Assembly (NCBI GenBank): GCA_947598455.1
Contig: CANQFI010000023.1
Span: forward strand, 1-17,551
DNA from: an uncultured Bacilli bacterium
Lineage (GTDB): Bacteria; Bacillota_I; Bacilli_A; RF39; UBA660
Direction of reading: 5' to 3'
Length of the DNA stretch: 17,551 bases
This document shows positions 1,654 to 15,491 of the stretch, in pieces. A program made the position numbers and the translations under genes. Positions within the stretch are counted from its first letter, which is position 1, and the number at the start of each line of letters is the position of its first letter. A model generated the notes under the pieces. The model did not search any database and was not told the DNA's origin. It saw nothing but the letters and a program-made list of their open reading frames with translations.

Positions 1654-3177
1654 ATGCGTACTAAAAAAGCCCTAAAAGGAACAATCTACGAAATAATTCC
1701 CACAATTATAATTGCTTTATTAGGTTTAATTAAAACTAAAGTATTTATTGAATACCTCGGTTCTGATATGAATGGATACTATCAGTTTATTAATCAATTT
1801 ATTAGTTATTTATTTTTAGCTGAAGCTGGTTTTACTACTGCAATCACTTATAAATTATATAAACCAATTGCTAAAAAAGATAATGAAAAAATATCTGAAT
1901 TATACTATGGTGGTTTAAAAATATTTCATCGTATTGGTTTAATAATTTCAGCAGGTATTCTCATATTATGTTTTTTCTTTAATTTCTTTATTCATGATAC
2001 TAATAGTATTAAATTAATTGTTATCATATCATTTATATTAATATCATTAAGTAATGTTATTTCATTCTTCTTTTATTCTAAAATGTATCAAGCTCTATAT
2101 GCTGCTAATCAAGAAGTATATAAAGCATCTATGATAACTAATATCTTTAAAATAATATCTGAAATAGCTTTAATTATAATACCAATCTTTTATCCATCTC
2201 TTCTTTTAATAGCATTAATAATGTTTATTTGTAAAGTAGGCGAAGAAATAGCTTTTATATTTATTAGTCGTAAAAAATTTACTATTAATAAAGTACCAAA
2301 AGATAAATATGATACTAGTGCTTATAAAATGACTAAAGATTTAATATTTTCTCAAATCGGTTATTTAGCTTTTAATAATATAGATATGGTTATTATAATG
2401 GGCTTTAAATCATTAGGAGCTATAGCTGTAAGTATTTATTCAGCATATAACTATATAAGTCGATTTATCTTTTCTTTAATTGCTAAAATATCTAGTGTAA
2501 GCTTACATTTATTAGGTAATGTCTTTGTTAAAGATGAAAAAGAAAATACTAAAGGTATCTTTAATGAATATTTAAGCTTTAGTTTTATCTTAGCTACTAT
2601 CTGTAGTTTATGTTTCTTTATTGGCGCTAGAAGTTTCATTAAAGTATGGATAAATGATAGTAATTATCTTTTAAATATTTATACAGTAGGTGCTTTCTCA
2701 TTAATATTATTCTTATCAATTACTATGGAACCTCTAACTGGTGTTATATCAGCTAATGGTTTATTCAAAGAAAGTAAATATTATACTTTGACAAGTTCTA
2801 TCTTAAATTTAACTTTATCTGTTATTTTATGTAAGTACTATGGTATTGTTGGCGTTTTAATAGCTACTATTATTTCATACTTACTAGATATAACTTTTAG
2901 AAGTATATTAGTTATTCAAAAAGTTTTCCCCGAAATAGGCTATAAAAAACTTTTTAGTAAATATATTATTTCTTTTATTATTATAATTACTTTAATCTTT
3001 ATATCTTCAATAGTTGAAAATAGATTCTTAAATATAAGTACCAGTTATTTATCATTCTTCTTAGGTATAATTATTATTTTTATTATAAGTTCAATTCTTA
3101 TTTTATTATTATATTGCTTAATATATAAATCAGCACGTTCATTAATAAAAAGAGGAAGAAGGTTATTAGCAAGATGA
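1654..3177 (+). CDS. Wzx-like oligosaccharide flippase (MATE/MOP superfamily)
   Basis: A 507-aa protein with about 12-14 hydrophobic helices spread over its whole length and no large soluble domain, as expected for the polysaccharide transporter branch of the MOP superfamily. These proteins flip undecaprenyl-linked oligosaccharides across the cytoplasmic membrane. The N-terminus runs straight into the first helix after a short basic stretch, and the C-terminus ends in an Arg/Lys-rich tail, both usual for the family. A GGTAGGGG site precedes the ATG. The TGA stop overlaps the start of the next glycosyltransferase (ATGA at 3174-3177), so the two are probably translationally coupled. The gap from the polymerase gene is only 49 bp, which supports one operon. 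The sugar substrate cannot be inferred. Confidence 0.85.
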   Translation: MRTKKALKGTIYEIIPTIIIALLGLIKTKVFIEYLGSDMNGYYQFINQFISYLFLAEAGFTTAITYKLYKPIAKKDNEKISELYYGGLKIFHRIGLIISAGILILCFFFNFFIHDTNSIKLIVIISFILISLSNVISFFFYSKMYQALYAANQEVYKASMITNIFKIISEIALIIIPIFYPSLLLIALIMFICKVGEEIAFIFISRKKFTINKVPKDKYDTSAYKMTKDLIFSQIGYLAFNNIDMVIIMGFKSLGAIAVSIYSAYNYISRFIFSLIAKISSVSLHLLGNVFVKDEKENTKGIFNEYLSFSFILATICSLCFFIGARSFIKVWINDSNYLLNIYTVGAFSLILFLSITMEPLTGVISANGLFKESKYYTLTSSILNLTLSVILCKYYGIVGVLIATIISYLLDITFRSILVIQKVFPEIGYKKLFSKYIISFIIIITLIFISSIVENRFLNISTSYLSFFLGIIIIFIISSILILLLYCLIYKSARSLIKRGRRLLAR

Positions 3178-9382: not shown

Positions 9383-9802
9383 ATGAAAGGATATGTTTTA
9401 GATTACATTAACGAAAACGAGTTTAAAAAATTAGAAAGAGCATTAAAAAAATATAATATGCTTGCCTATAAAAAATTAAACTTCGAATATTATCCAGCCT
9501 TAAGAAATGGTAAATTTGTCGGTGTTATGACAAGTCAAAATAAAAAAGCTGGTACTGAAACTTATGAACTAAAACTACCTAGTGATAGTATGTTTACTCA
9601 AGTTCATGGTGACGTAAAATTAATATATACTGTCTATATTAAGGAACAAACAATTATGTTAAATACTATTACACCATCTGATATTCTTTTAGAAGGACAT
9701 CAATCAGAACTTACTACATATAAAGGTATAATGATTTCTAAGAAAAATGCATCTAAAGACATGTTTAAAATTGATTTATTAAAGATGTTACAAGATAAAT
9801 AG
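9383..9802 (+). CDS. Uncharacterised 139-aa soluble protein
   Basis: I do not recognise this gene. It encodes a 139-aa protein with no signal peptide or membrane segment. The first 30 residues are charged and look helical (ENEFKKLERALKKYN). They are followed by alternating hydrophobic stretches typical of beta strands (GKFVGVMTSQ, VKLIYTVYIKEQTIML) and a short amphipathic C-terminal helix. A strong AGGGGGAA ribosome site precedes the ATG. The gene stands alone: two promoters lie upstream and a terminator begins at its stop codon, so it is monocistronic. Two promoters for one small gene suggest it responds to more than one signal. Codon use and AT content match its neighbours. Confidence 0.8.
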   Translation: MKGYVLDYINENEFKKLERALKKYNMLAYKKLNFEYYPALRNGKFVGVMTSQNKKAGTETYELKLPSDSMFTQVHGDVKLIYTVYIKEQTIMLNTITPSDILLEGHQSELTTYKGIMISKKNASKDMFKIDLLKMLQDK

Positions 9803-13453: not shown

Positions 13454-13476
13454 AATAGAGTAAGGAAGTGGAAACA

Positions 13477-14859
13477 ATGAGTGAAATAAAGATGGTTGAG
13501 GGAAAAAAACTAAACAGTAGATTGTTAGAGGAAATAATAAAACGTCGTGATACTTTATTCCAAAAAGGCCACAGAGCTTATACAAGAAGTGAAAATGTAG
13601 ATCTAGAAGAAATTGATGCTACTAATAACAAAAGAATATATAAAGATGATAAAGAAGAATATGATTGCTTACATGAAATAGAAACATTATTTTTACAATT
13701 TGGAAATAGTGGAAATGGCGAACAAGACACATGTCAAAACGATCAAGTTTATGACATACCAGGTGTTAAAGTTATAATAGATGGTAATGAAGTAAATACC
13801 CATATCAACGTTCGTCAAGATAAAATATCAGCATTAGCACGTAAAGCTAAAGACTATGAAAGAATACTTTCTAAAGAAGGTTCTTTACAAATAAAATTTC
13901 CAAACCAAATATATCAATTTAACCATGATCAAACAAATATTCCTGGAACAACATATAAAGCTCCTAAACCAAAATTAGTTTCCCAAACTACTGAAGAATA
14001 CGAAGAAAGTTTAAAAACATTTTATCATGATAAAGGCATAGAAAGAGAAGAAACAGAAGATAAAATATGGCGTAAACCATATCCACATGAATATGTCGAT
14101 TATAAAGGAGCAGCTGCCGATAAAAAAGATCAAGTTCAATCAGAATATTATAGATTTAATTTTAAAGCCAAACAAGAAATAAAAGCACAAAGAGGTAAAC
14201 TTAGATTCACAAGACAACAAGTAAATGAAAAAACACCATTGTTTACCAAATTAAAAAATGGTGTTTTAGGCATAGGTTCAACAGTTAAAGATGATGAATC
14301 AGCTCGTAAAAAAATTAAATATGTCTTAGCAACAGGTGGAGCTATTGCTGCCGGTACATACTTTGGAATAACAAGTGGTCTATTACCAGCTGTCTTACCA
14401 GTTGGGGGAATTGCTCTTCTATATCACTGGGCTAAGAAAAAATTTGATAAAATGCGTAAGGAAAAAGAAAGAAATTCGCAACAGGATAATCAAAGAAACG
14501 ATGGTTCTAGTAGAAGTTCAAATCCAACTCCACAACCACCAACACCAATTAATCCACCAACCCAAGGTGGTGGAACTCCAATTAATCTTGGAGAAGATCT
14601 TGAAGAAAATCTTCAATCATTAAGACAAAACTCAGAAGTAGTTACAAACATTGAAAATAGAATTGCTCAACTTCAACATGAATTAGATAATTTAAACCCT
14701 AATACACCTAACTACAATGATAAAAAAGATAAGCTTAATCAAGAAATAACTAAGCTAAAAGAAAATAAAAGAACAATTTTAGAAAGCTTAAAAGAAGATA
14801 TAACTAAAATACTTAATAGTTACCAATTAGGTAATGAAGCTGGAGGTCCAAAATTATAA
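13477..14859 (+). CDS. Uncharacterised protein: hydrophobic hairpin, Pro-rich linker, coiled coil
   Basis: I do not recognise this 460-aa protein. Residues 1-270 are charged and soluble, with two Cys (63 and 86) and no signal peptide. Residues 280-318 form two adjacent hydrophobic stretches (VLATGGAIAAGTYFGI; LLPAVLPVGGIALLYHW) that could be a membrane hairpin. A strongly basic patch (KKKFDKMRKEKER), a Pro/Thr-rich linker (348-368) and a predicted coiled coil (about 372-449) follow. The layout suggests a membrane-anchored scaffold or adaptor with both large parts in the cytosol. ATG 13477 is chosen because GTG 13468 falls inside the AAGGAAGTGG ribosome site. The DUF1292-like gene starts 2 bp after its stop, so the two are probably co-translated. 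Confidence 0.8.
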   Translation: MSEIKMVEGKKLNSRLLEEIIKRRDTLFQKGHRAYTRSENVDLEEIDATNNKRIYKDDKEEYDCLHEIETLFLQFGNSGNGEQDTCQNDQVYDIPGVKVIIDGNEVNTHINVRQDKISALARKAKDYERILSKEGSLQIKFPNQIYQFNHDQTNIPGTTYKAPKPKLVSQTTEEYEESLKTFYHDKGIEREETEDKIWRKPYPHEYVDYKGAAADKKDQVQSEYYRFNFKAKQEIKAQRGKLRFTRQQVNEKTPLFTKLKNGVLGIGSTVKDDESARKKIKYVLATGGAIAAGTYFGITSGLLPAVLPVGGIALLYHWAKKKFDKMRKEKERNSQQDNQRNDGSSRSSNPTPQPPTPINPPTQGGGTPINLGEDLEENLQSLRQNSEVVTNIENRIAQLQHELDNLNPNTPNYNDKKDKLNQEITKLKENKRTILESLKEDITKILNSYQLGNEAGGPKL

Positions 14860-14861
14860 TT

Positions 14862-15188
14862 ATGAAAGAAAATATAATAATTACATTAGAAACAGGGGCA
14901 CGCTATCTATTACTTCATGAATTAAATGATATAGATGGTAAAAACTATTTCTTTGCTGTTGGTATCACAGACGATGATTCACTTGATGAAAAAGAGACTG
15001 TATTTTTTGAAGTAACAACCGAAAATGGTGAAGAACTAGTTGAAAAAGTTGATCCAGAATCAGATCTATACAAAACATTAATTACTATTGAGTATGCCGA
15101 TTCACGACTAGATGAAGATCCATCTTTTGCTCCAAAACTAGAAACTTTAATTAATGTTATTGAAAAACAACAAACAAGTAGCAAATAA
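14862..15188 (+). CDS. DUF1292/YrzB-like small acidic protein
   Basis: A 108-aa acidic protein with the feel of the DUF1292 family (B. subtilis YrzB). A beta-rich core carries ITLETGARYLLLHELNDIDG, GKNYFFAVGITDDD and TVFFEVTTENGEELVEKVDP, then a C-terminal acidic helix. The match is to the general pattern of hydrophobic strands and EDGEE turns, so moderate only. Context helps: in B. subtilis yrzB lies a few genes upstream of the U32 genes yrrN and yrrO, and here a U32 gene is the next protein gene. The GGAGGT at 14842-14847 is 14 bp from the ATG, inside the previous gene, so coupling is likely. The stop codon lies in the loop of a terminator. Function is unknown for the family. Confidence 0.7.
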   Translation: MKENIIITLETGARYLLLHELNDIDGKNYFFAVGITDDDSLDEKETVFFEVTTENGEELVEKVDPESDLYKTLITIEYADSRLDEDPSFAPKLETLINVIEKQQTSSK

Positions 15189-15205
15189 GCTACTTGTTTT
15201 ATCTT
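15172..15205 (+). terminator. Rho-independent terminator after the DUF1292-like gene
   Basis: AAACAAGTAGC (15172-15182) pairs perfectly with GCTACTTGTTT (15189-15199) around a 6-nt loop that contains the TAA stop. A T-rich tail follows. Confidence 0.92.
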
Positions 15206-15236
15206 ATAAGAAAGTTCTCAAAAGTGTAAAAAAATA

Positions 15237-15266
15237 TTGACGAACAATAGTTCTTCATTATATAAT
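15237..15266 (+). promoter_or_regulatory. Sigma-A-type promoter of the putative non-coding RNA
   Basis: TTGACG (15237-15242), 18 bp, TATAAT (15261-15266). It lies right after the terminator and has no protein gene for over 200 bp downstream. Expected transcription start is near 15273. Confidence 0.75.
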
Positions 15267-15412
15267 TACTTTATGGAGAAAAATTATAATTTATGTTGGT
15301 GACTAAAAAATTATTTTTTTTAGATTAAAGAATGAAAAAAGAAATGTACGGTGGCGACCATCGGAATTTAGGCTTGTGGAGGAGGAGACTCCTATGAAGC
15401 AGGAAAAAGGAA

Positions 15413-15440
15413 TTGTGAGGTTTCTTATGTAAAATATAAT
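15413..15440 (+). promoter_or_regulatory. Possible promoter for the U32 gene
   Basis: TTGTGA (15413-15418), 16 bp, TATAAT (15435-15440). It overlaps the left arm of the long palindrome. Transcription would start near 15447 and give a leader of about 45 nt. Another TATAAT (15470-15475) is too close to the ribosome site to serve this gene. Confidence 0.4.
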
Positions 15441-15469
15441 AATTTTAATTATTTATTTTACTTTTGTTC
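15429..15469 (+). terminator. Long AT-rich palindrome, probable terminator
   Basis: GTAAAATA (15429-15436) pairs with TATTTTAC (15454-15461). After one bulged T, AATAATT (15438-15444) pairs with AATTATT (15447-15453). The tail is TTTTGTTCT. It could end the non-coding RNA, act as an attenuator for the U32 gene, or be an operator over the possible promoter at 15413-15440. Confidence 0.5.
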
Positions 15470-15491
15470 TATAATAAATTGGGTGATTTAC

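Follow-up and report, generated by a model that had tools for sequence, protein, structure and literature searches.

What is an omega-RNA-like segment doing in front of a U32 peptidase gene, with no nuclease gene beside it? The question is raised by a 17,551-nt stretch of DNA from an uncultured Bacilli bacterium (contig CANQFI010000023.1; hereafter the window). The original prediction read its segment 15273–15470 as an orphan omega-RNA-like transcription unit without tnpB that might be a domesticated trans-acting or regulatory RNA. On the evidence of sequence comparison, the segment is a real omega-RNA unit without tnpB; it is a small but complete transposon rather than a domesticated RNA. Related to tnpB elements, it retains both ends, the promoter and a complete omega-RNA scaffold. 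The explanation that we consider probable is a small, PATE- or MITE-like, non-autonomous element of the IS200/IS605 type whose guide RNA would work with TnpB encoded elsewhere. The parts of the locus are as follows.

15172..15199, + strand: intrinsic-terminator-like hairpin of the upstream ORF, with the element inserted in its T-tract
15197..15202, + strand: TTTTAT, probable target motif (TAM)
15203..15469, + strand: whole element, 267 bp, delimited by aligned dispersed copies and empty sites
15237..15266, + strand: promoter TTGACG-18-TATAAT inside the left end; the same promoter precedes tnpB in four full elements of genome G002
15346–15426: scaffold (omega-RNA)
15349..15363, + strand: scaffold hairpin H1 (fold, co-variation)
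15373..15403, + strand: scaffold helix H2, CTTG 15373–15376 with CAGG 15400–15403, enclosing H3 (co-variation)
15380–15393, + strand: scaffold hairpin H3, inside H2 (fold)
15407..15426, + strand: scaffold hairpin H4, AAGGAA/TTTCTT (fold, scaffold alignment of copies)
15429..15461, + strand: right-end hairpin (fold, aligned copies)
15470..15489, + strand: putative guide position, length assumed to be 16–20 nt (copies diverge from 15470; analogy with ISDra2 as described in the available text of PMC8612924)

The surrounding DNA is AT-rich. The upstream neighbour of the element is a small ORF (14862–15188) with no Pfam match at 1e-3, and the downstream neighbour is a U32 peptidase gene (ORF from 15483; Peptidase_U32, E 5.7e-78), whose preceding TATAAT is covered by the guide position. 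The predicted GC-rich block was confirmed, with GC of 0.50 and 0.45 in the 60-nt intervals 15340–15399 and 15370–15429 against 0.12–0.28 in adjoining intervals. The promoter is as sound as was claimed, being sigma-70-like and agreeing with the consensus at 11 of 12 positions. An inverted repeat, GAAC/GTTC, lies between its −35 and −10 hexamers; it is longer in relatives (CGAACACTAGTTCG). If this repeat is a transposase-bound left-end hairpin, its binding could block the promoter. At the two termini of the element, the right-end hairpin folds and the left-end repeat is short. A terminator scan flagged 15172–15199 alone, and the palindrome taken earlier for a terminator is the right-end hairpin. 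That hairpin has not been replaced by AAGGAA/TTTCTT, as had been proposed; the latter is the last scaffold hairpin and both are present.

The window holds no homology to tnpB or tnpA (best tblastn E 0.75 and 1.1), in agreement with the earlier reading. The suggested Rfam comparison returned no family at gathering score in the window, 6S RNA included, and relaxed filters gave weak matches outside the scaffold. Searches of plasmids and phages by blastn gave short matches, with no record covering 80% of the query. Four of the ten window ORFs scanned are without a Pfam match at 1e-3 (1654–3174, 9383–9799, 13468–14856 and 14862–15185).

The resemblance to the 3′ end of tnpB that had been proposed proved to be real homology. 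When 15330–15430 was compared with ten related genomes, 10 copies at 86–93% identity (best E 4e-34) were found in G002, the genome of locus L004, together with one additional 31-nt partial match (L112). One copy at 83% was found in G001 (L111), and the remaining eight genomes gave short matches only, at E 0.08 or higher. Five of the G002 copies lie directly behind tnpB (four full, one cut by a contig edge) and five have no tnpB upstream. The G002 and G001 copies occupy unrelated sites with different flanks. Among the five solo G002 copies, L109 lacks both a recognised left end and the common right end, and in L112 the left end and the first part of tnpB are preserved but most of the scaffold is gone; decay therefore also happens.

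The family was then surveyed more widely. A pattern for the first hairpin (at most two mismatches) occurred in 37 of 386 family genomes, with no reversed control pattern among the matches listed, and a TnpB search at E 1e-10 was positive in 78 of the 386. A total of 109 copies, including the window and G001 copies, were classified by tblastn with G002 TnpB over at most 1600 nt upstream; this census sees copies that kept the first hairpin (L112, with no recognisable core, lies outside it), and a TnpB distant from the query could escape it. Full tnpB was found at 29 copies, contig-edge tnpB at 12, remnants at 17 and weak remnants at seven; 22 copies, the window copy among them, are solo, with no tnpB homology in the upstream sequence examined, and a further 22 have too little upstream sequence. 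The tnpB stop codon lies 12–56 nt upstream of the scaffold in all 29 full copies. The stops noted earlier in the protein frame of the window segment are thus real, but they are not a sign of decay. In eight of the 22 solo copies the 300 nt upstream contain a match to a strict promoter pattern.

Twelve of the 38 genomes contain at least one solo copy, and in six of them full or contig-edge tnpB with scaffold is also present. No TnpB was found in five of the 12, all searched in fragmented assemblies (G001 by PF07282; G013, G056, G328 and G358 by the TnpB search at E 1e-10). In G340 (L258–L262) and G350 (L232–L236), all ten scaffold copies lie within 82 nt of a contig end; repeated tnpB copies were therefore probably lost in assembly and tnpB undercounted.

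Alignment of the dispersed copies, together with empty sites, defined both termini at 15203 and 15469, where no element end had been recognised before. On the right, most aligned copies are alike up to ...TTTTGTTC and diverge beyond it; L108 has CATATTC at that point and L109 lacks such an end. On the left, CTTATARGAAAGTTC directly follows TTTAT in five of six aligned solo elements and TTTTTG in L110. The window element sits directly 3′ of TTTTAT, within the T-tract belonging to the terminator of the upstream gene. At eight related loci the same terminator stands shortly before the U32 gene with no insert, and the scaffold was found in none of the 76 readable related U32 upstream regions. The nearest relatives by U32 protein are uncultured gut-type Bacilli assemblies; a single-protein U32 query gave no match in genome contigs, where the related loci were found with a 35-row alignment query, and no match was obtained in viral contigs. 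L106 of G002, inserted before lepA, has an empty counterpart too: in G001 this terminator is present and the site, of matching length, is unoccupied. No target duplication was seen at either site with an empty counterpart. The element has thus inserted 3′ of a short motif without target duplication, as two empty counterparts and TTTTAT at the left junction indicate, and it keeps both ends of a tnpB-bearing relative while encoding no protein, as expected of a PATE or non-autonomous IS200/IS605 element. The sequence after ...GTTC varies between copies, as expected of a flank-derived 3′ guide in an omega-RNA, and flank sequence would be used as guide. A guide position thus starts at 15470, where no clear guide had been seen. 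The first base to the right of the element, in 86 copies, is T in 68, A in 11, G in six and C in one, a strong bias but not a fixed base; a fixed base at this position is given as a mark of IS607-type elements in the available text of PMC10711439.

The scaffold is homologous to tnpB-linked RNAs and its structure is conserved. Pairing was counted in an anchor-based alignment, which accommodated 104 of the 109 copies (96 distinct sequences; L192, L200, L209, L215 and L222 were left out). H1 is paired in 478 of 480 cells (1000 shuffles: mean 448.6, maximum 458) and H2 in 381 of 384 (mean 305.7, maximum 320), counts that are inflated by kinship among the sequences and, for H2, include one class (17 of 96) read one base shifted and picked by sequence class. 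Compensatory pair types are T-A, C-G and G-C in H1 and A-T, G-C and C-G in H2. No counts were taken from a MAFFT alignment, in which the variable stems were misaligned. The shuffle test covered H1 and H2; H3 and H4 were judged by inspection. H4 falls into two loop classes, one with CGTGAG-like loops, and is also present in tnpB-linked copies; the H4 finder returned no pairs for L110 and 0–2 for a few other copies. Folding the window scaffold gave the same hairpins (z −2.44, with 4 of 200 shuffles equally good), with the H2 register shifted by one in the lowest-energy fold. The longer segment 15273–15470 folded with z −3.4, pairing the leader with H4; this fold was set aside in favour of the scaffold-only fold, since all members of the CGTGAG-loop class form H4 as a local hairpin.

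The G002 TnpB contains PF12323, PF01385 and PF07282 and aligns with ISDra2 TnpB (8h1j) over residues 3–374 (E 8.6e-62). Glu and Asp are kept in its later motifs, and we take these to be the other two catalytic positions. Asp192 is aligned with 8h1j chain residue 193, which is taken as D191 of the available text of PMC8612924, the chain being two residues longer. Y1 transposase genes were found in 12 of the 38 genomes, and element ends at none of the 19 Y1 loci searched.

Near-identical copies at several sites show that the solo form itself has spread. Three G002 copies (L104, L106 and L107) are 94–96% identical across the whole element at three sites, and two G358 copies (L264 and L265) are 95.5% identical over 332 nt, the element extent, at two sites. 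Solo L264 occupies the same genomic site as the full tnpB element L266 in G200; the left flank with the left end matches at 96.8% over 406 nt, and the stretch from the scaffold through the right end into the right flank at 96.0% over 453 nt. L111 of G001 stands at another locus than the window copy and shares 83% identity with it as a whole, 75% within the leader; this solo form therefore probably predates either insertion. Against L104, L106 and L107 the window scaffold is 91% identical and the leader 53–55%, a likeness too weak to claim a common origin of the window and G002 solo copies. The better preservation of the scaffold fits constraint on the RNA, and exchange with tnpB copies would match it too.

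Placement behind terminators extends beyond the window. Left ends were recognised for 27 of the 109 copies (22 by a motif together with at least 8 T in 12 nt, five by a hand-chosen motif; L264 and L266 represent one site), and 23 of the 27 lie directly behind a terminator-like hairpin with a T-tract. In T-matched controls, drawn like the unmatched ones from loci L001–L080 only, the fraction is 63/281 intergenic and 274/2350 in ORFs for TTTTA, and 33/183 and 187/1441 for TTTTAT; controls unmatched for T content gave 45/350 and 32/300. The comparison of 23/27 with 63/281 gives a Fisher p of about 1e-10, a value that ignores kinship and the T-rich choice of ends. By eye, three of the exceptions (L106, L197 and L200) have AT-rich hairpins missing the GC rule, and L238 fails. 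Left ends directly behind hairpins are seen in the window (15172–15202) and at L101, L103–L108, L111, L199, L208, L231 and L264–L266. If this preference holds in complete genomes, it would show how such elements avoid genes. No description of guide-RNA-only elements behind terminators appeared in the literature searched, in which coverage of TnpB and IscB is incomplete, and no priority is claimed.

These features suggest how the element could persist. The promoter would drive an RNA of ∼200 nt that reads through the right end into the flank, so that its 3′ end copies flanking DNA as guide. By analogy with ISDra2, TATAATAAATTGGGTGATTT is the predicted guide, in full or as the first 16 nt. TnpB from a full-length relative elsewhere in the genome may bind the window RNA in trans and cut TTTTAT followed by the guide sequence, the arrangement that a site takes on once the element has been excised; repair with a sister copy as template would then put the element back. 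At its own locus GTTC, not TTTTAT, precedes the guide, and so only the empty site would be cut and the element spared. The transposase would likewise act in trans. A trans-acting role with TnpB is possible, as the element's own retention rather than host regulation. Use of solo RNA in trans would mean that RNA-guided retention can be parasitised by protein-less elements, and that nuclease and guide need not stay linked. Natural pairs for testing this exist in G200 and G358, which have one site in common that holds a full form in the first and a solo form in the second, and within G002, in which each kind is represented five times. More tentatively, and as a speculation that we would not favour at present, guide-RNA-only transposons may be a recurring class of parasite in the family, devoid of protein genes, with promoter and scaffold under selection, borrowing the TnpB of another element in trans for their retention and homing to the T-tracts of intrinsic terminators. 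Such homing, if true, would keep the elements out of genes and shield their promoter from upstream transcription.

The window copy could instead be a decaying remnant of the same origin and with the same ends, no longer transcribed, guided or moved, its scaffold intact only through recent arrival or exchange with tnpB copies. Damaged copies such as L109 and L112, the 17 tnpB remnants and seven weak remnants among 109 copies, the five solo-copy genomes in which no TnpB was found and the strict promoter pattern in a minority of solo copies all agree with decay. The window copy itself, however, is intact in its promoter, four scaffold hairpins and right end, and neither the near-identical solo copies at several sites nor the better preservation of scaffold over leader is what decay would lead one to expect; we regard this explanation as rather unlikely.

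Far less credible is a domesticated regulatory guide RNA that targets a host gene together with a TnpB-like protein devoid of nuclease activity, in the manner of TldR. The segment has its own promoter, the TATAAT preceding the U32 gene falls at its guide position, and TldR guide RNAs, as described in the available text of PMC13418256, are a known precedent. Yet the absence of the insertion from all 76 related U32 upstream regions does not fit a stable linkage to one gene, the dispersed copies with different flanks are mobile, both ends and a clean junction behind TTTTAT are kept, and at the locus itself the guide is not preceded by TTTTAT. The G002 TnpB with the same scaffold retains Asp, Glu and Asp, and no partner protein is encoded in the window. 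The domesticated part of the original prediction is not supported; the omega-RNA-like, promoter-bearing unit without tnpB is supported by its promoter consensus, its homology to tnpB-linked scaffolds and co-variation. The strong fold of 15273–15470 could also suggest an unrelated structured RNA such as 6S RNA, but this is contradicted by homology to scaffolds behind tnpB and by the Rfam results, and we give it almost no credence.

The small non-autonomous element that we favour has close precedents. PATEs with omega-RNAs have been discussed before. The available text of PMC7290912 describes a PATE-like IS605 element of Halanaerobium hydrogeniformans, ∼271 nt long and thought to be moved in trans. 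The window element resembles it in size, in a left end with a hairpin, in the lack of tnpA and in a whole right end; 58 nt of the tnpB 3′ end are present in the Halanaerobium element. That element is described as one copy and its omega-RNA is not treated in that text, whereas many copies in many genomes are found here, with an own promoter, a full co-varying scaffold and placement behind terminators. In the ISDra2 model, as given in the available text of PMC8612924, TnpB together with a right-end RNA cleaves the empty donor where target motif and right flank have been joined. The similarity to the ISDra2 reRNA lies in a right-end RNA, a 3′ guide from the flank and a target motif 5′ of the guide, with a homologous TnpB in the tnpB-linked copies here. 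Unlike the ISDra2 reRNA, which matches the tnpB 3′ end, the scaffold here begins after tnpB has stopped; the motif is TTTTAT rather than TTGAT, and the window element has no tnpB. TldR systems share a TnpB-type guide RNA, and a figure legend in PMC13418256 raises the possibility that guide RNAs are still supplied in trans by a locus whose tldR is broken; according to the available text, however, TldRs lack a working nuclease and are linked to genes of the host or a phage, and there is no sign of either here. We classify the window element as PATE-like, with a guide RNA that is complete, and as a further case of a known type.
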